From contig NC_014484.1 of NCBI RefSeq assembly GCF_000147075.1, positions 1,381,501 to 1,445,500 on the forward strand: DNA of 64,000 nucleotides. Direction: 5' to 3'. The position numbers were made by a program, and so were the translations under genes. The DNA is from Spirochaeta thermophila DSM 6192 (GTDB taxonomy: Bacteria > Spirochaetota > Spirochaetia > Winmispirales > Winmispiraceae). The notes beneath the pieces are model-generated. The model saw only the letters and a program-made list of their open reading frames with translations. It was not told the DNA's origin and searched no databases. Shown one piece after another: positions 8,301 to 56,324 of the stretch. How positions within the stretch are numbered: position 1 is the stretch's first letter; each line of letters opens with the position of its first letter.

Positions 8301-9045
8301 GACCCTCCTCGAACGAGCGGTAGCCTTGATCAAGGCATCCTCCTACACCGTGGCCTTCACCGGTGCCGGCATCTCACACGAGAGCGGCGTGCCTACGTTC
8401 AGAGGCCCCGACGGACTCTGGTCACGTTACGACCCGAGGGTACTGGAGATAGACTTCTTCTTCCGCCATCCGAAGGAGAGCTGGGCGGCCATACGGGAGA
8501 TGTTCTTCTCGGCGGACCATCCACCGGAGCCCAATCCGGCCCACCTCCTCCTCGCCCGCATGGAGGCACAAGGACTGCTCCATGCGGTGATCACCATGAA
8601 CATCGACAACCTCCACCACCGGGCCGGATCCCGCAATGTGATAGAATACCACGGCAACACCCGGGAGGCGGTCTGCACCCTCTGCAGGAGGCGGTACACA
8701 GCCCGGGAAGTACTCGGGATGGAGGCACCCCCCACCTGTTCGTGCGGCGGTCTCATCAAACCGGACTTCGTCTTCTTCGGCGAGGCGATCCCTGCCGAGG
8801 CCTACACCAGAAGCGTGGATGAAGCCCGCAGGGCCCAGTGCCTCCTCGTCGTGGGGACCGCCGGAGTGGTGTATCCCGCTGCATCCATTCCCCACATTGC
8901 CGAGCGGGCCGGCGCCCACATCATAGAGATCAACCCGGAACCTTCGTCCTACACCGAGAGCATCACCGAGGTGTACCTCCCCTTGAAGGCGGCCGAGGCT
9001 GCCATCCTTCTCGCCCGCCATCTGGAGATCGATCTGGACCTCTAG
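8281..9045 (+). CDS. NAD-dependent protein deacylase, Sir2 family
   Basis: 254 residues, normal for bacterial CobB-type sirtuins. NAD-binding GAGISHESGVPTFRG (residues 28-42), ITMNIDNLHHRAGS, catalytic His in EYHGN, and a zinc ribbon of two cysteine pairs (CTLC and CSC) are all present. It removes acyl groups from lysines using NAD. The ATG at 8281 follows GAGGTG; a second in-frame ATG is four codons on. The reading frame starts inside the end of the hydrolase gene, implying coupled expression. The deacylase class (acetyl versus succinyl) is not assigned. Confidence 0.93.
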   Translation: MDRDMTETLLERAVALIKASSYTVAFTGAGISHESGVPTFRGPDGLWSRYDPRVLEIDFFFRHPKESWAAIREMFFSADHPPEPNPAHLLLARMEAQGLLHAVITMNIDNLHHRAGSRNVIEYHGNTREAVCTLCRRRYTAREVLGMEAPPTCSCGGLIKPDFVFFGEAIPAEAYTRSVDEARRAQCLLVVGTAGVVYPAASIPHIAERAGAHIIEINPEPSSYTESITEVYLPLKAAEAAILLARHLEIDLDL

Positions 9046-9067
9046 CGGAGAAGCCGAAGCCCCGCGA

Positions 9068-9085
9068 GATCGTGAGCGCACGATC
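9068..9085. terminator. Perfect hairpin between convergent genes
   Basis: GATCGTG-agcg-CACGATC forms a 7-bp stem with a 4-base loop in the 62-base gap between the convergent sirtuin and CPBP genes. It lacks a T run, so a terminator role is only suggested. Confidence 0.3.
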
Positions 9086-9107
9086 CCCAGCGGAGCGCAG
9101 GATCGAT

Positions 9108-10103
9108 TCAGTCCGCTCCCACGGAGGAGCGTCCCTCTTCCCCTGTCGTAACACCTCCTTCGGGGGGCTCCGGGTCCTTCGCCGCGGACCGCCTCCGGGT
9201 CCTCCTCCACAACCAGGCCCCCATCCCCACCGAACACACCCCCGAGAGGAGGGCCGCCGGGAACCCGAACGACGGATCTCTACCGGACATCGGCCCCCCC
9301 AAGGGCAGGAGGCCGTTTTCAAGGAGGACGATGGTCATGTTGTAGGAGAAGTGAAGCACCCCCGAGGAGAGGATGGAGCCGGTGGCCGCATAGACGAGCC
9401 CGAGGGCAAGCCCCACCGCGAAGAGGGAGACCACCCCGAGGAAACTCCGGTGGAACAGGGAGAACACACCCGCCGAGATGAGCACCGACGCCCACAGAGG
9501 CATCCTTCGCTGGAGGGTGTGCTGGAAGAACCCTCGGAAGAGGAACTCCTCGCAAAAGGCGGGAGTGAGCCCCACGCTCACCGTGACGAGCACCCATTCG
9601 AGGGGACTCCCGGCCCGGTAGAGTTCCCTCGAGGCCTCGAACAATTCCTCGAGCCCGGGAAAGAGCAAGAGATTCCACGAGCTCAGGACCGAGGAGAGAG
9701 GGACCAGGAGAGGCCCCCAGAGAAAGGCGCCCACGGTCACTCCGAGATCGGCCTTTCCGTTCAGGACGTACTCCCACACATGAGGGGTGTACCATCGACG
9801 CACGAGGAGGGAGGCGAGCCCAACGAAGACTCCCCACTCCACTACGAGGGTGAGGACGAGGGAGGGGACCTTCACGGCTCTGTAGAACTCCCTGAGGAGA
9901 GAGAGAAAGTCCTCGTCCAGGAGGGAAGGACTCTCCACCCTCTTCCCCACGAGGAAGAGGAAGAGTCCCACCACCTCGCCCACGAGCCCGCCTATCGCCA
10001 GGTACAGCCCCCCTGTGAGGAAGACGAGGATGAAGGCCCCCAACACCGGACTCTGCCCGGGACGTTCGAAGGTGCCGATAGGGGGTGCCCCTCTCTCGCT
10101 CAC
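9108..10103 (-). CDS. CPBP-family intramembrane metalloprotease
   Basis: 331 residues with about eight hydrophobic segments. The CPBP (ABI/CAAX-protease-like) core is visible: motif 1 PAFCEEFLFRGFFQ with the paired glutamates and arginine, motif 2 FSLFH and motif 3 HFSYN. These residues form the glutamyl/metal active site in the family. Roles elsewhere include prenyl-protein processing and bacteriocin self-immunity; none can be assigned here. It starts in a 4-base ATGA overlap with the upstream membrane protein, so both probably act together. Confidence 0.85.
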   Translation of the reverse strand: MSERGAPPIGTFERPGQSPVLGAFILVFLTGGLYLAIGGLVGEVVGLFLFLVGKRVESPSLLDEDFLSLLREFYRAVKVPSLVLTLVVEWGVFVGLASLLVRRWYTPHVWEYVLNGKADLGVTVGAFLWGPLLVPLSSVLSSWNLLLFPGLEELFEASRELYRAGSPLEWVLVTVSVGLTPAFCEEFLFRGFFQHTLQRRMPLWASVLISAGVFSLFHRSFLGVVSLFAVGLALGLVYAATGSILSSGVLHFSYNMTIVLLENGLLPLGGPMSGRDPSFGFPAALLSGVCSVGMGAWLWRRTRRRSAAKDPEPPEGGVTTGEEGRSSVGAD

Positions 10104-11125
10104 ACGTCGCCCCCCTCGGGCGGCACGCCTGCCTCAGGTTCTACGACATCGGATGACGGGGCGTTCTTCCGCACCGAGAGATCCACGAAGAGGAGGGCGG
10201 TGAAGACAGGAGCGAGGATGTGGGAGCCGATGAGCTGGATCCCTTCCACCACCCAGACGCCCACCCACACCCAGGGGCTGCTGTAGAAGGAGAGCATCCT
10301 GGAGACGAGGTCCTCCAGGTTCGTCGGATCAGGTGAGAGGAGGATCCGAGAGAAGAGACTCAGGCTCAAGGGAGACTGTACGAGGAAACTCAGGAGAAGC
10401 CCCATGAAGCCCACGAGCAACCAGAAGAGGAGGAGATACCCGAAGACCCTCCACCACGACCCTGAGACGAGCTCGAGACTCCGACGTATACCGGCCCACG
10501 CGCCCCTGTCTTCGAAGATCACGGCATACGCCGCGAAGCTCACCGCCACCAAAAACCAGACGAGGAATACGTACCACGCCACCACGAGGAGGACGATGAG
10601 CACGGTGATGAGCACACTCCCCACCCTCCCATCGAGCAGAGAGGCGAGGAAACCACCCACGGCCCCCACGACGCCGAGACCGATGAGCGAGAGCAGTACC
10701 AACCCGGCCACGACGAGCCACTGGAGGAGGAGGCGTCCCAAGGCTCTGACCACCCCCTCGAGCGCACCCGGGAGGTTTCCCTCACCACGGTGGACGTGAT
10801 CCCATGCGAGGAATCCCACCACGAGTGTACCCACCCACTGAACGAGCATCAACACCAGCTCCCAGACCCAGAGCCTCCCGAACCGGGCGAGGACCGCCTG
10901 CATGAGGTCGAGTCCCCGATTATAGTGTTGGGAGAGCTCCTCGCCCATGAAGACGAGAGTCCTCATGATCCCGGGAAGGACGCTCGCCGTACCCGCCAGG
11001 AACACCCCGGTGAAGCCCCAGAGGCATACCCATACCACCAGGAAGGGTCGCCACAACTCGCCTGTCACCCGGAACGTCGTACCGAGCATCTCGCCGAGAC
11101 CGTACGTACGGACACGTTCTTCCAT
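10100..11125 (-). CDS. Multi-pass membrane protein of unknown function
   Basis: 341 residues, almost entirely six or more long hydrophobic helices separated by short loops. The layout (short cytoplasmic N-terminus, paired helices, GIRRSLELVSGSWWRVFGYLLL in the middle) resembles the membrane domain of glycerophosphodiester phosphodiesterase-type proteins, but no catalytic domain is attached. The ATG at 11125 is preceded by AAGGAGGT. Translationally coupled to the CPBP protease downstream. Function unknown; it could be a partner or substrate of that protease. Confidence 0.75.
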   Translation of the reverse strand: MEERVRTYGLGEMLGTTFRVTGELWRPFLVVWVCLWGFTGVFLAGTASVLPGIMRTLVFMGEELSQHYNRGLDLMQAVLARFGRLWVWELVLMLVQWVGTLVVGFLAWDHVHRGEGNLPGALEGVVRALGRLLLQWLVVAGLVLLSLIGLGVVGAVGGFLASLLDGRVGSVLITVLIVLLVVAWYVFLVWFLVAVSFAAYAVIFEDRGAWAGIRRSLELVSGSWWRVFGYLLLFWLLVGFMGLLLSFLVQSPLSLSLFSRILLSPDPTNLEDLVSRMLSFYSSPWVWVGVWVVEGIQLIGSHILAPVFTALLFVDLSVRKNAPSSDVVEPEAGVPPEGGDV

Positions 11126-11245: not shown

Positions 11246-12529
11246 ATGTCGCTGAGGATCGGATTCATCTCGTTCAGGATCTCAGGCACCGACGGGGTCT
11301 CACTCGAGACGAAAAAGTGGGCCGACGTGCTCACCCGCATGGGATTCGAGTGCTTCTTCATGGCGGGTCAGCTCGACACCCCCCCCGACCGCTCGTACGA
11401 AGTCCCCGAGGCACACTTCCAGACCCCCGATGCGAAGATGCTCTACTACCGGTGTTTCTACCAGCCGGTGAGAGATCCGGAGACCAGCCGGATAATCCAC
11501 GAGAGGAGGGAAAGGCTCAAGGATCACCTCTACGAGTTCGTACGGAGGTTCTCCCTCGACCTCCTCATCCCCGAGAACGTGCTCGCCATACCCCTCAACA
11601 TCCCCCTCGCCCTCGCCCTCACGGAGTTCATCGCCGAGACGGGGTTCAAGGTGCTCGCCCACCACCACGACTTCTACTGGGAACGCAAGCGGTTCCTCAC
11701 CAACTGCGTGTGGGACTACATCAACTGGGCCTATCCCCCCCACCTCCCGAGCGTCCACCACGTGGTCATCAACAGCTCGGCCCAAAACCAGCTCGCCCTC
11801 CGCACCGGCATCTCCTCCACCCTCATCCCCAACGTGATGGAGTTCGAAGCCCCTCCCCCGCCTCTCGATGAGTGGGCGCAGGACGTGCGGGAGGCCCTTG
11901 GCATACGCGAGGACGAGCTCTTCATCCTCCAGCCCACGCGGGTGGTGCAGCGCAAGGGGATCGAGCACGCGATAGAGTTCACCGCCCGGCTCGGCCTGCC
12001 TGCAAAACTTGTGATCTCCCACGCCTCAGGGGACGAAGGCCACGAGTACGAACAGCGGGTGAGGGAATATGCCCAGCTCCTGGGCGTGAACGCGCTCTTC
12101 GTGAGCGACATCATAGGGGAGGAGCGCGGCTACACCCCCGACGGCAGGAAGATCTACTCACTCTACGACGTCTATCCCCACGCGGATCTGGTCACCTATC
12201 CTTCCATCTACGAGGGTTTCGGCAACGCCTTCCTCGAGGCCATCTACTTTAAAAAACCCATCCTCGTAAATAACTACTCAGTCTACAGTCACGACATACG
12301 GCCCAAGGGGTTCAAGTGCCTCGAGATGGACGAGTTCATCACCACCGACCTCATCGACACCGCTCGGGCACTGCTCAAGAGGCCCGACGTGATACAGGAA
12401 TGGGTGGAGCACAACTACGAACTCGCGCGTCAGTACTACTCCTACAGCGTGCTCAAGACTAAGCTCATCTCGATCCTGGTGAGCCACTTCGGGTACAGCA
12501 ACATCAGTCCCTGTCCCGATAGGGTGTGA
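11246..12529 (+). CDS. Family 4 (GT-B) glycosyltransferase
   Basis: 427 residues. The N-terminal half starts with a Rossmann strand and glycine loop (IGFISFRISGTDGVSLETKKW). The C-terminal nucleotide-sugar domain has LQPTRVVQRKGIEHAI and the retaining E-x7-E motif in YPSIYEGFGNAFLEAIYFKKP. It transfers a sugar from a nucleotide donor with retention. It faces a GH13_18 phosphorylase-type gene, and the two overlap by 26 bases at their 3' ends. Pairing of a GT4 enzyme with such a phosphorylase is suggestive of glucosylglycerate-like solute turnover, but donor and acceptor are not readable from sequence. Confidence 0.85.
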   Translation: MSLRIGFISFRISGTDGVSLETKKWADVLTRMGFECFFMAGQLDTPPDRSYEVPEAHFQTPDAKMLYYRCFYQPVRDPETSRIIHERRERLKDHLYEFVRRFSLDLLIPENVLAIPLNIPLALALTEFIAETGFKVLAHHHDFYWERKRFLTNCVWDYINWAYPPHLPSVHHVVINSSAQNQLALRTGISSTLIPNVMEFEAPPPPLDEWAQDVREALGIREDELFILQPTRVVQRKGIEHAIEFTARLGLPAKLVISHASGDEGHEYEQRVREYAQLLGVNALFVSDIIGEERGYTPDGRKIYSLYDVYPHADLVTYPSIYEGFGNAFLEAIYFKKPILVNNYSVYSHDIRPKGFKCLEMDEFITTDLIDTARALLKRPDVIQEWVEHNYELARQYYSYSVLKTKLISILVSHFGYSNISPCPDRV

Positions 12530-14267
12530 GCCAGAGGACCTCGTAGCCGCCGAGCGAGATGGAGAAGCGGTCCTCGTCCTCTCGGTAGGGGACGAGGGTA
12601 TCCCCGCTTGTGAGCTCGGTGAACAGGTGCACCTCCGGTGAGCTCGCAAATATCGACGAAGGGAAGACGCACTCCTGCTCGACGTGGCTCACATTGATGA
12701 GGCAAAGCACCTCCTCTGTTGCGTCATGGCTCCTCCTCATGAGGGCAAGCACGGTTTCGGGGGCATCCAGCACCTCCTGCGTCCCCCTGGGATCAAAGGC
12801 GCGACTCTTCCGTCGGGCGGCGAGCATATCGAGGTAGCCTTTGAAGACCATGCTCCTGAGGCTCTCGGGATCCTCGAGCTCGCGGAGTATCTCATCGTAG
12901 GAACACTTCTGTCGGTTGATGGTGCGGTTCATCCCGGTCTTCTCCACACCCTCACGCCAATTCTCCGACCCCAGGAGGCTGTGGACATAGATACCGGGCA
13001 TCCCCACCAGGGAGAGCATCACGGCCTGACTCGCGAGGAACTTCCGGGCCCTGGTGGGGCGGTCGAGATGTGCCTCGCTTATGGCGCTCAGGTAGTTGAT
13101 GTTGAGCTCGTAGGGCACCTCGCCCTCGGGTGTGCTCTTGTAGGAGATGAGGCCGCCTCTATCCTTCACCGCCTCGATCATCGAGTCGATGTGCTCGTCA
13201 GGGAGTATCCCCCGGGCGGGGAGCACCCCTATGCCGTCGTGCGAGGCGAGGAAGTTGAAGTAGCTCACCTTTCCGCCGTAGGTGTCGATGGTGCGGGCCC
13301 ACTCCCTGAGGTAGGAGACATCCTTCCTGAGAAAGGCATCCAGGACGAGGGGAGGGAGGGCGAACTGATACACGAGATGGGCCTCGTCCATGTCCCCGAA
13401 GTAGGAGATGTTCTCCTCGTGGGGGACATTGGTCTCGGTGATGATGAGGACCCAGGGGCACACCTCCTCACAGATCGCCCTGAAGAGCTTCACCACGGCG
13501 TGGGTCTTGGGGTGGTGGATACAGGGGGTGCCGAGCTCCTTCCAGAGATAGGCGATAGCATCCAGGCGGATGATCTGGGCACCCTGAGAGACATAGAAGA
13601 GGAAGATGTCGATCATCTCGAGGAGGACCCGCGGGTTCGCATAGTTGAGGTCGACCTGATCCCGGCTGAAGGTGGTCCACACCAGTACCGGCCCCTTCGG
13701 ACTCTCGAACTCGTGAACAAGGGGAAGGGCACGGGGTCTGAAGACCCCTGAGAGATCGGTGCCGGGCTCCACGGTGATGAAGAAGTCCTCGTACGCAGGA
13801 TCGCCCTGGAGGAAGCGCCTGAACCACTCGCTCTTGGCAGAACAGTGGTTGAGTACGAGGTCCACCATGAGCCGGAACTCTCCGCTTATGCGGCGAACCT
13901 CCTCCCAGGTACCCCACTCGGGGTTCACCGTGCGGTAGTCGATCACCGAAAATCCGTCGTCCGAGGAATAGTGGAAGAAGGGGAGGATGTGGACTCCCTT
14001 CATCGTGCCGGAGAGGTACTCTCGAAGGAACTCTCCGAGGGTAGCGAGGGGGGCTTCCCCTTCTCTTCTGAACTGATCGCCATACGTGATGAGGACTGCA
14101 TCGGTGTGATCGAGCGGAAGGCGGCCGGAGACATACTCCTCGTCAGGAGCGGGAAGACGGCTCCTCCACCTCTCGAGAAGGGCGCGAAGGTGCTCATAGG
14201 TGTCACGTCCCGTGTCAGGTCCATAGATGAACGAGAGGAGCTCTCTCATGCGATCGACAGGTTCCAT
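12504..14267 (-). CDS. GH13 subfamily 18 glycoside phosphorylase (sucrose / glucosylglycerate phosphorylase type)
   Basis: 587 residues. A TIM-barrel GH13 core is seen: DLVLNHCSAKSEWF (region II like), nucleophile IIRLDAIAYLWKELGT, acid/base ITETN, and the third acidic residue in FLASHDGIG. The early segment LITYGDQF...PLATLGEFL and the phrase GVHILPFFHYSSDDGFSV are characteristic of subfamily 18, whose members split sucrose, sucrose 6'-phosphate or glucosylglycerate with phosphate to give glucose 1-phosphate. It is somewhat longer than classic sucrose phosphorylases (about 490), which leans towards the glucosylglycerate or sucrose-phosphate branch. Expression is probably controlled by the operator repeat just upstream. 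Confidence 0.88.
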   Translation of the reverse strand: MEPVDRMRELLSFIYGPDTGRDTYEHLRALLERWRSRLPAPDEEYVSGRLPLDHTDAVLITYGDQFRREGEAPLATLGEFLREYLSGTMKGVHILPFFHYSSDDGFSVIDYRTVNPEWGTWEEVRRISGEFRLMVDLVLNHCSAKSEWFRRFLQGDPAYEDFFITVEPGTDLSGVFRPRALPLVHEFESPKGPVLVWTTFSRDQVDLNYANPRVLLEMIDIFLFYVSQGAQIIRLDAIAYLWKELGTPCIHHPKTHAVVKLFRAICEEVCPWVLIITETNVPHEENISYFGDMDEAHLVYQFALPPLVLDAFLRKDVSYLREWARTIDTYGGKVSYFNFLASHDGIGVLPARGILPDEHIDSMIEAVKDRGGLISYKSTPEGEVPYELNINYLSAISEAHLDRPTRARKFLASQAVMLSLVGMPGIYVHSLLGSENWREGVEKTGMNRTINRQKCSYDEILRELEDPESLRSMVFKGYLDMLAARRKSRAFDPRGTQEVLDAPETVLALMRRSHDATEEVLCLINVSHVEQECVFPSSIFASSPEVHLFTELTSGDTLVPYREDEDRFSISLGGYEVLWLTPYRDRD

Positions 14268-14284
14268 AGATCCTCCTCATGCGC

Positions 14285-14316
14285 TTCTCTAATAAGAGAC
14301 TTCTCTAATAAGAGAC
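14285..14316. repeat. Tandem palindromic operator upstream of the GH13_18 gene
   Basis: Two exact adjacent copies of the 16-bp unit TTCTCTAATAAGAGAC (14285-14300 and 14301-14316). Each contains the palindrome TCTCT-aata-AGAGA. They lie between the -10 element and the ribosome binding site of the GH13_18 gene, covering the expected transcription start, the classic position for a repressor. Confidence 0.7.
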
Positions 14317-14343
14317 TATAGTAGGGTGAAACAGGTATCGCAA
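14315..14343 (-). promoter_or_regulatory. Sigma-70 promoter of the GH13_18 gene
   Basis: TTGCGA (14338-14343), exactly 17 bp, TATAGT (14315-14320), on the minus strand. The -10 hexamer overlaps the outer edge of the tandem palindrome by two bases. Confidence 0.75.
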
Positions 14344-14491
14344 GTCGAACGGAATATGAAAATCTTCAATCTTTATAGATAAATGATTATTCATATACCC
14401 CTTTCTGCACTCTCACCTTCGTGATACAGGTTCGGGAGAGCCCTTCACGAGTGTCGATCTGGGAATAACGATGGCTTCTTGGATGTCTTTC

Positions 14492-14524
14492 TTGACAGAC
14501 GCGGCCCAAAAAGGAGAGTATAGA
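14492..14524 (+). promoter_or_regulatory. Possible promoter of the rnf operon
   Basis: A consensus -35 TTGACA (14492-14497) precedes TATAGA (14519-14524), but the spacing is 21 bp, longer than optimal. The AT-rich stretch 14341-14490 holds no gene and no clear further motif. Confidence 0.35.
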
Positions 14525-14554
14525 GTATAAGAGTATACGAGAAAAGGAGCCGCT

Positions 14555-14986
14555 ATGGCCACTGTGCAGAACATTTCACACGACGGTGTGGTGGTCGCTC
14601 GCGAAGAGAACCGCGTCCGCATCGTCATGCAACGCTCCACCCTCTGTTCCCACTGTGCGGCACGAGGCGCCTGCACCCTGGGAGATTCGCAGGAGCAGGA
14701 ACTCCTCGTCACGACGGAGGAGCCGGTGGAGCCCGGCGAGCGGGTCCGCCTGGTCATAGAGGAGCGTCTGGGCTGGAAGGCCGTCCTTCTGGGCCTCGCC
14801 CTCCCTGCCCTCCTCCTTTTGGGAGGGATCTTCGTGTCCTTGGCTCTGGGGGCAACCGAGGTGGTCTCCGCGCTTGTGGGACTGGGGACCGTGGCTCTCT
14901 ACTACGGGAGCCTCGCCCTCTTCCGCAGGAACCTCGAGCGAAGTTTCAGCGTGAGGGTGGAACGCATCTCTCATACCACACGATGA
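14555..14986 (+). CDS. rseC: RseC/MucC-like (SoxR-reducing system) protein
   Basis: 143 residues. The N-terminal soluble part has the RseC cysteine signature STLCSHCAARGACTLGD, followed by two transmembrane helices (about residues 68-112). RseC proteins accompany Rnf-type electron-transport complexes. AAAAGGAG lies upstream of the ATG. It is the first gene of the rnf operon, ending ten bases before rnfB. Confidence 0.88.
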   Translation: MATVQNISHDGVVVAREENRVRIVMQRSTLCSHCAARGACTLGDSQEQELLVTTEEPVEPGERVRLVIEERLGWKAVLLGLALPALLLLGGIFVSLALGATEVVSALVGLGTVALYYGSLALFRRNLERSFSVRVERISHTTR

Positions 14987-31946: not shown

Positions 31947-32669
31947 ATGGCTCGGAAGAAGAAACAGCAGGGTTTCGGCGTGCTCTTCTGGATCGCCTCG
32001 ATCCTCGTGGTGATCATCGTCTACCTCTGGAACCGGCCCACCATACTGAAGGTCATGGAGAATACCGGCTTCATAGAGGTCGTAAAGGAAAAGATCGCAA
32101 GTCCCACCCCCCCCACGTCCTCCCCCACCCCCACCCCCCCCGTGGCCGCCGGCCCCACCCACACGAGCCCGCCGACCCCGTCCCCTCCGCCCACACCATC
32201 CCCCACCCCTCACACGTCCCCGCCTCCCTCCCCCTCAGCCACCACGCGCAGCCGCACCTCGCTCCTCTATTTCGTGCAGGTCTTCGACGACGGTCGGGTG
32301 GAGCTCGTACCCGTGAAACGTCGGGTGACCTACACCGACGCGCCCCTCACCGCCACGCTCGACGCCCTCCTCCACGGCCCCACCGCGGGGGAACTCTCCG
32401 CCGGGGTCCGGAGCCTCATCCCACCCGAGACCAGGCTCCTGGGCGTCCGGGTGGAGAACGGAACTGCGTATATCAACATCAGCGAATCCTTCCGGTTCAA
32501 CCCGCTCGGCCAGGAGGGACTCGTCCTCCAACTCAAGCAGATCATCTACACCGCCACCGAGTTCCCCACCGTGGAACAGGTGCAACTACTCATCGAAGGC
32601 AAGACCGTGCGCTACCTCGGTCCCGAGGGCATCCCCATAGATCACCCCCTCTCCCGATCGTCGCTGTAG
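31947..32669 (+). CDS. Membrane-anchored GerMN-domain protein
   Basis: 240 residues. A basic start (MARKKKQQ) and one membrane helix are followed by a Pro/Thr/Ser-rich linker of about 55 residues. A GerMN (sporulation/germination) domain then covers about residues 105-235: YFVQVFDDGRVELVPVKRRV, TLDALLHGPT and the strand VRVENGTAYINISESF. In spore formers GerM binds cell-wall complexes; in a non-sporulating spirochaete the domain probably acts at the envelope. No good ribosome binding site is seen. The 3' end overlaps convergent tlyA by 28 bases. Confidence 0.82.
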   Translation: MARKKKQQGFGVLFWIASILVVIIVYLWNRPTILKVMENTGFIEVVKEKIASPTPPTSSPTPTPPVAAGPTHTSPPTPSPPPTPSPTPHTSPPPSPSATTRSRTSLLYFVQVFDDGRVELVPVKRRVTYTDAPLTATLDALLHGPTAGELSAGVRSLIPPETRLLGVRVENGTAYINISESFRFNPLGQEGLVLQLKQIIYTATEFPTVEQVQLLIEGKTVRYLGPEGIPIDHPLSRSSL

Positions 32670-37656: not shown

Positions 37657-38199
37657 CGAATGCACCTTAGAACAAGCAAAGTAGGCTGCCCCCCCTCCCG
37701 CCTGTTTGCCCTGTGGCCACTGCTGGTGCGTGGGGGTGCGCTGGCTTCCCTTTCTGGCTCTAGCCTTTTAACATGACTTAAAAGAGGTAGTGCAGGTAGG
37801 GAACAGAAAAACTTTTTCTGTTTCCCCCAAACCCGGGAAAGAAGAAAAAGGAGGCCAGCAAGTACAGGGATGTACTGCTGGAAAGCCTGTACAGGGAAGT
37901 ACAGGCTTAGTGGTTAAGGGGGCTTTTAAAAGCTAAGTTAGAGGCAAAAAGCCCTGTTTAAAGTGGCCAGGGTTTGGGGCGAGGCAAATTGGTTAAAGTA
38001 GGGGCACTTCGTAATAATGAGCGAATTATAGGAAGTGCCCCGATTGGTTTATAGAGGCAGAAAATAAGCTTTTTAAGCTGTAAGCCTGCAGCTGGTGGCT
38101 TTTATGGAAAATAGAGGCTTTAACCAATTTGCCCGCTACCTGCACAGGTTAAGGAGAAGGCCTTGGCTGGGTTAGCGGCGGTGCTGGTGGCCAGCAGGG
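37657..38199. other. Hairpin-dense non-coding stretch of the insert
   Basis: No convincing gene in about 540 bases. Clear inverted repeats in order: CTTTTAA/TTAAAAG (37765-37784); GGGAACAGAAAAA facing TTTTTCTGTTTCCC with one bulge (37798-37825, terminator-like); AGTACA/TGTACT (37862-37877); GCCTGTAC/GTACAGGC (37886-37907); palindrome GCTTTTAAAAGC (37922-37933); and the large nested structure at 37983-38133. Such density suggests a structured RNA or a folded DNA recombination or replication site. The 3' ends of both flanking insert genes point into it. Confidence 0.6.
37983..38133. repeat. 151-base nested inverted-repeat structure
   Basis: GGCAAATTGGTTAAAG (37983-37998) is perfectly complementary to 38118-38133. 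Inside are GGGGCACTTC (38001-38010) / GAAGTGCCCC (38032-38041) with an inner ATAAT/ATTAT pairing, AGCTT/AAGCT, and AAGCC/GGCTT. One long closing helix around three hairpins is the layout of a multi-branch structured RNA or a cruciform-type DNA site. No known family was recognised. Confidence 0.6.
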
Positions 38200-55910: not shown

Positions 55911-56324
55911 TTACATGGAGCCAAGCGACCCGAGTACCGACATCCCAAAGATGAGAGAGAAGAGAACGGCGAGCACTCCTTCTACAATGAGCGTAAAGAA
56001 CCAGGCCACAAGCGTGGCACCCAGGGACTTGCCGTAGGTGGTCTTATACACCGCGCGCACCCCCAATGCCTGCAGCAAGACACCTATCACAAAGCCGATC
56101 GCCGATCCCACAAAGGGAAGGGAGAAGAAGATGAGGGAGAAGAAGATGAGGGAGAAGAAGATGAGGGAGAAGACGAACAACACCACCCATCCTACAAGGG
56201 TAGCGAGCACGGCCTTGCCGTAGCCCTGCTACTCGAGCTCACTTGCCTTTGCCCCTCATGAGAGGAACAACGCACCGAGAAGCACACCGATAATATCCAA
56301 TCACAGGATGCTCACTACTACCAT
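55911..56324 (-). pseudogene. Decayed gene for a small multi-pass membrane protein
   Basis: A good start (AGAGGAGG, ATG at 56324) opens a frame interrupted by TGA at codon 8, TGA at codon 23 and TAG at codon 32, then open for 100 codons to TAA/TGA near 55911. The rest encodes very hydrophobic sequence with the duplicated-looking elements YGKAVLATLVGW and YGKSLGATLVAW, so the intact protein was probably a repeat of a four-helix unit. An internal start GTG at 56210 could still yield a 99-residue membrane protein. Function unknown. The stretch 56325-56465 holds nothing further recognised. Confidence 0.55.
56122..56166. repeat. 15-bp tandem repeat, three copies
   Basis: Three exact copies of GAGAAGAAGATGAGG (56122-56136, 56137-56151, 56152-56166). 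On the minus strand they encode repeated Ser-Leu-Ile-Phe-Phe in a membrane helix of the decayed gene; slippage can change helix length by five residues. Confidence 0.85.

Follow-up and report, generated by a model that had tools for sequence, protein, structure and literature searches.

Two perfect tandem copies of a 16-bp unit where transcription of a GH13_18 phosphorylase gene of Spirochaeta thermophila is predicted to start

Short tandem duplications produced by replication slippage are a known kind of sequence change. The repeat described here resembles them in its exact adjacent copies, in its 2-nt AG bounds and in a copy number that varies between close relatives; it differs in that its unit is a short inverted repeat lying over a predicted transcription start. 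The second yardstick is given by LacI-family operators of the kind presumably present in this genome (TGTTTTCGAAAACA), which likewise place a dyad near the promoter of a carbohydrate gene, whereas theirs are CG-centred, recur around LacI-family genes and stand at matching places in the sister species.

The gene behind the repeat has itself a described product, passages of two reviews (PMC7178133, PMC11009771) and likewise of a third paper (PMC6720575) naming the Spirochaeta thermophila enzyme a strict 2-O-glucosylglycerate phosphorylase. No paper title found in the open-licence literature dealt with how a spirochaete controls the breakdown of glucosylglycerate.

Architecture of the repeat and its surroundings

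The window, that is, the whole stretch of DNA that was analysed, covers 64,000 nucleotides of S. thermophila DSM 6192 (contig NC_014484.1, positions 1,381,501 to 1,445,500). The features of interest, in window coordinates, are the following.

12504-14267, minus strand: GH13_18 glycoside phosphorylase gene, 587 aa (translation)
14270-14278, minus strand: ribosome-binding-site-like GAGGAGGAT, the same in the sister species
14284-14317, minus strand: perfect tandem duplication of period 16, 2.1 copies, 34 bp (repeat finding)
14286-14299, minus strand: second copy of the dyad, within the predicted leader
14302-14315, minus strand: copy of the dyad nearest the -10, matching the position of the sister's sole copy relative to the -10
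14315-14343, minus strand: promoter-like TTGCGA-17-TATAGT, by consensus match; hexamers and spacing the same in the sister
14522-14529, plus strand: extra 8-bp copy of AGAGTATA relative to the sister, directly upstream of the RseC/Rnf gene start (alignment)

The best solved relatives of the GH13_18 protein (PDB) are a sucrose phosphorylase, an Aamy domain protein and a glucosylglycerol phosphorylase, matches which make it by sequence a member of the sucrose phosphorylase-like family; against the NCBIfam sucrose phosphorylase model TIGR03852 it reaches 198.4 bits, under the cut-off of 334.4, and its product is most likely 2-O-glucosylglycerate phosphorylase. Convergent with its gene, here as well as in a genome of the same family (G002), lies a glycosyltransferase gene (11246-12529) whose product resembles mannosylglucosylglycerate synthase (250.4 bits, for a model cut-off of 640) and which may make the substrate of the phosphorylase. 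On the other side of the 287-bp intergenic region (14268-14554) begin the RseC and rnf genes; RseC, which Pfam lists as a sigma E regulator, is a membrane protein. No Pfam match to a DNA-binding domain was found in the GH13_18 protein and the seven proteins around it, one of these eight (8838-10286) having no match of any kind, which agrees with the statement of the first-pass annotation that no regulator gene is adjacent.

That annotation had also described two exact adjacent palindromes overlapping the -10 of a well-formed promoter and set on different faces of the helix, and in these respects its description stands. CTTCTCTAATAAGAGA occurs twice, at 14284-14299 and 14300-14315, followed by two further bases of the unit, and Tandem Repeats Finder gives the array as 100% matching; read on the minus strand, it is AG-TCTCTTATTAGAGA-AG-TCTCTTATTAGAGA-AG. 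Each copy holds TCTCT-N4-AGAGA, with a 4-nt centre that lacks self-complementarity; dyad symmetry is present twice at the promoter-like stretch, adjoining the -10. The promoter-like stretch (minus strand, 14343-14315) matches 9 of the 12 consensus bases, and the array covers the final three bases of its -10 (14315-14317). As to the faces, this is a matter of arithmetic: 16 bp make about 1.5 helical turns, and neighbouring copies face opposite sides. Downstream of the array follow GAGGAGGAT and the ATG at 14267, with one base between the two differing in the sister. A repeat of GTGAWACAGGT at 14326 and 14421 was dropped as an element, since one of the two places has a degenerate form in the sister.

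Copy number in the sister species and beyond

The sister species is represented by one genome of the same genus (G001), whose GH13_18 protein is 92% identical. Its promoter hexamers, ribosome site and ATG are all as in the window, and the flanks can be aligned, yet the copy number differs: two in the window, one in the sister. The sole copy, AGTCTTTATATAGAGAAG, has 4 of 18 bases changed and one of its five arm pairs broken, the other four being retained at an unchanged distance from the -10.

Exact tandem duplications with a period of 12-40 are found at two places in the window and at none in 10 dinucleotide shuffles, from which it follows that the 16-bp duplication is real. Taken alone, the inverted repeat is unremarkable, occurring at the frequency expected by chance for the region. 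The window has 105 perfect 5-4-5 dyads, where 10 shuffles average 86.3; in the intergenic region, dyads with an arm of 5 and a loop of 3-8 number three against a shuffle mean of 2.4, and 202 of 500 shuffles reach at least three. Two of these three are a single dyad copied, and the two palindromes are therefore not independent evidence.

How often such changes occur nearby was assessed by aligning the window with 76 kb of the sister genome and taking the five alignments of at least 3 kb. They contain eight gaps of at least five bases, four of which are tandem copies and four not clearly tandem. The tandem ones are the 16-bp array (its gap was split by the aligner, hence a scripted tandem score of 0.25), AGAGTATA at 14522-14529, CCTCCC at 32119 and two 15-bp units at 56119; the three besides the array measure 6-30 bp, and one of them is in the same intergenic region, where the AGAGTATA tandem repeat spans 14515-14541. 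Short tandem changes are thus found at other places too, if infrequently, and this intergenic region has two of the four. The last of them belongs to a 15-bp tandem repeat of 3.7 perfect copies (56119-56173), of which the sister has two units fewer.

On balance, the array at the predicted transcription start of the GH13_18 gene is probably a near-neutral tandem duplication, a reading held with some reserve. The unit is flanked by AG on both sides, so that replication slippage from AG to AG would add exactly 16 bases, and the array ends in two more bases of the unit (AG), as slippage predicts. The twin palindromes are, on this reading, one short inverted repeat copied once. With a predicted start 6 nt past the -10, near 14309, the transcript would begin inside the first copy; the extra copy, placed between the -10 and the ribosome site, would leave both the -35/-10 spacing and the spacing from ribosome site to ATG unaffected, and would only add 16 nt to the predicted leader (about 42 nt in place of about 26), a change that was probably tolerated as near-neutral. 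The identity of the two copies suits a recent event, a weak indication given the divergence of about 7% between the two species, and the available comparison does not polarise the direction of change (gain or loss of a copy).

The divergence of the unit may be looked at from two sides. In the aligned stretch upstream of the array, which takes in most of the -10, window and sister differ at 16 of 241 bases, and in the unit at 4 of 18 (p 0.039 by Fisher's test, post hoc); the greater divergence of the unit counts in favour of the near-neutral reading. Three of the four changes in the unit, however, lie in its 4-nt centre (chance about 0.04 if they are independent substitutions, again post hoc), which counts in favour of a repressor site, although one substitution and two 1-nt indels account for the four changes as well. 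The two figures oppose each other in direction, and both are post hoc and small.

Beyond the sister, some match to the GH13_18 protein exists in 36 of the 41 genomes searched, own genome included. For 19 loci the 150 nt before the start of the match were scanned for the arms, with 60 shuffles each. The arm match was equalled by none of the 60 shuffles for the window and by one for the sister, whose full 14-mer match was equalled by 9 of 60. At the other 17 loci the best arm match had at least two mismatches and was equalled by 7 to 60 of the 60 shuffles, the best of them (L020) having TCTTTTTTTAAAGA, whose match to the arms 7 of 60 shuffles equalled and whose match to the full 14-mer 1 of 60; at L023 the match starts at query residue 52, and the scanned stretch is thus probably coding. 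The same-family genome G002, with a GH13_18 protein 68% identical, has by eye a similar promoter-like stretch, without the dyad.

Candidate operators and regulators

A different explanation is that a single dyad over the start point is a repressor site in both species which happens to be doubled here: an unlinked regulator, bound as a dimer, would block RNA polymerase, and the second copy would at most strengthen binding. This I regard as unlikely, though it is the main rival of the near-neutral duplication. In its favour are the position of the site, which abuts the -10, and the sister's copy, found in the same place with four of its five arm pairs; the rarity of exact 12-40 bp duplications, absent from 76 kb of the sister, is likewise counted against the near-neutral duplication.

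The genome-wide searches bear upon it in both directions. In the 2,472,645 bases of the own genome, exact TCTCT-N4-AGAGA occurs at six sites, two of them in the array, against two for the reversed control; the remaining four are all within long ORFs, and the genome has neither a second exact intergenic dyad nor another pair of exact dyads side by side. The lack of a second exact intergenic site counts against a repressor, whereas a regulator with one target would leave no regulon to find. Allowing up to three mismatches, TCTCTWATWAGAGA gave 116 forward matches, below the 148 of its control. The relaxed TCTYTWWWWAGAGA, with at most one mismatch, is mildly enriched in both species, with 17 strand-hits in the own genome, of which the array supplies 4, as compared with 4 for the control, and 19 against 9 in the sister; in G002 there are 169, and 209 for the control. 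To the disadvantage of the repressor reading, 8 of the 10 other distinct places of TCTYTWWWWAGAGA are in ORFs and one (L088) is at an ORF end; a single one (L056), preceding an anthranilate-synthase-like gene, is intergenic.

The first-pass annotation had named copies of the dyad near sugar genes as a check. For the exact dyad this was not borne out, the other four copies being those in ORFs, and of the two leads given by relaxed motifs one fell and one stays a lead. The former is the TCTYTWWWWAGAGA match before a GH10 xylanase gene (L037, one of the 8 in ORFs), set aside as an operator: in both species it reads as the final codons of the upstream ORF, and although it is conserved in the sister and the overlapping ORF has no Pfam match, coding may explain the conservation. 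A 2-mismatch place (L040), which shares a 15-bp identity with the window (CTAATAAGAGACTAT) and is conserved in the sister, lacks the left arm and was not counted. The remaining lead is an intergenic site, in both species, before a tagaturonate-epimerase-like gene (Pfam UxaE). Here TCTTTATRTAGAAA stands about 75 nt before the gene (L112:1501-1514 in the own genome, L111:1501-1514 in the sister) and shares 13 of 14 bases with the sister's copy at the phosphorylase gene.

A motif derived from the sister's copy, TCTTTWWATAGARA, which was chosen after the hits had been seen, has four exact places in the sister genome, all outside likely genes: at the phosphorylase gene, at the anthranilate-synthase-like gene, at the tagaturonate-epimerase-like gene and between malic-enzyme-like and NuoF-like genes (L113). 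With at most one mismatch it gives 8 strand-hits in the sister against 1 in the control, and 4 against 3 in the own genome. Near-matches stand at the corresponding own-genome places before the anthranilate-synthase-like (TCTTTAAATAGAAA) and tagaturonate-epimerase-like (TCTTTATGTAGAAA) genes, both sites being intergenic in both species, while the L113 site is changed in the own genome (L124). Such TCTTTWWATAGARA-like sites may represent a site type shared in the sister, with which its copy at the phosphorylase gene may group; as a post hoc lead this speaks for a repressor site, and the two shared sites accordingly lower the confidence placed in the neutral duplication and slightly raise that in a single dyad. 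On the other hand, both shared sites have AGAAA arms rather than AGAGA and the window copies fit the motif worse than the sister's copy does, and the lead does not displace the near-neutral duplication as the preferred reading. The genes with resembling sites are not known to share a pathway.

The site before the anthranilate-synthase-like gene also deserves a mention of its own. It reads GTTTCTAT-WW-AAAGAAAC (L056:1500-1517 in the own genome, L084:1553-1570 in the sister), an inverted repeat whose inner arms are kept and whose centre is changed, the sister's arms extending by eye over 10 bp (GTGCGTTTCT/AGAAACGCAC). Judged by its sequence, it is a more convincing candidate for an operator or leader element than the 16-bp array.

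As for the missing regulator, a LacI-type protein was considered and rejected. In G002 a LacI-family gene stands directly upstream of the GH13_18 gene (L076:6868-7959), and its best match in the own genome (62%, G000 1503260-1504273) is in a GH30 cluster. The dyad of that cluster, which LacI proteins presumably bind, is CG-centred and unrelated to the 16-mer; moreover, there is no LacI-type site (TGTTWTCGAWAACA, up to three mismatches) near 14300, the sole match in the window being at 38100-38113. With up to two mismatches, TGTTWTCGAWAACA has 14 sites in the own genome (control 2) and 15 in the sister (control 3), and in each genome four of them cluster around LacI-family genes, within about 13 kb (own) or 15 kb (sister); G002, which is richer in AT, shows no enrichment (89 sites, control 124). 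Pattern searches are thus able to reveal an operator-like set in this genome, and the contrast between the LacI dyad and the 16-mer is one of clustering and conservation more than of raw enrichment.

CG-centred LacI-type dyads were observed around the GH30 cluster (L109:13295-13310; G000:C1:1496809-1509396), with similar ones in the sister, and the matching cluster of G002 has a doubled LacI-type dyad (L076:12728-12755).

RNA element, paired dimers and significance

The repeat might alternatively act as RNA, a leader hairpin UCUCU-UAUU-AGAGA protecting the 5' end of the mRNA or affecting access to the ribosome site, which is improbable. Folding was run at 37-70 C. At 37 C the unit folds with -3.8 kcal/mol (z -3.09 against shuffles), and in the whole repeat, folded at 65 C, CUCUU and the ribosome-site AGGAG pair with each other; at the latter temperature, however, the unit alone reaches only -0.69 kcal/mol, and the sister's unit does not fold. 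Whole leaders do no better than shuffles, with z of -0.26 for the whole repeat, 0.78 for the sister and 0.80 from the predicted start; the sister's predicted transcript would start inside its sole dyad and so would hold no full hairpin, and no Rfam match was found in 14000-14700 up to an E of 1.

Two cooperating repressor dimers on opposite faces, one per copy, as the first-pass annotation had proposed from the exact copies and the 16-bp period, are very unlikely. The sister keeps the promoter with one imperfect copy, none of the other homologues that were scanned showed the arrangement, and elsewhere in the genome exact dyads are unpaired and in ORFs. Taken as a whole, the operator reading is weakly supported. 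Less probable still is a composite scheme in which copy-number changes of two slippage-prone repeats, one per divergent promoter (14284-14317 and 14515-14541), would set the balance between osmolyte breakdown and energy conservation from strain to strain, the 16-bp unit being the doubled site of an unlinked regulator that would also act at the tagaturonate-epimerase-like and anthranilate-synthase-like genes.

To sum up, where palindromes stand in exact tandem at a promoter, a single short dyad may have been duplicated, and the comparison with one close relative is informative in this respect. The repeat would matter little if the reading as a near-neutral duplication holds; if a regulator binds it, it would offer a way into the question of how a spirochaete controls the breakdown of glucosylglycerate.
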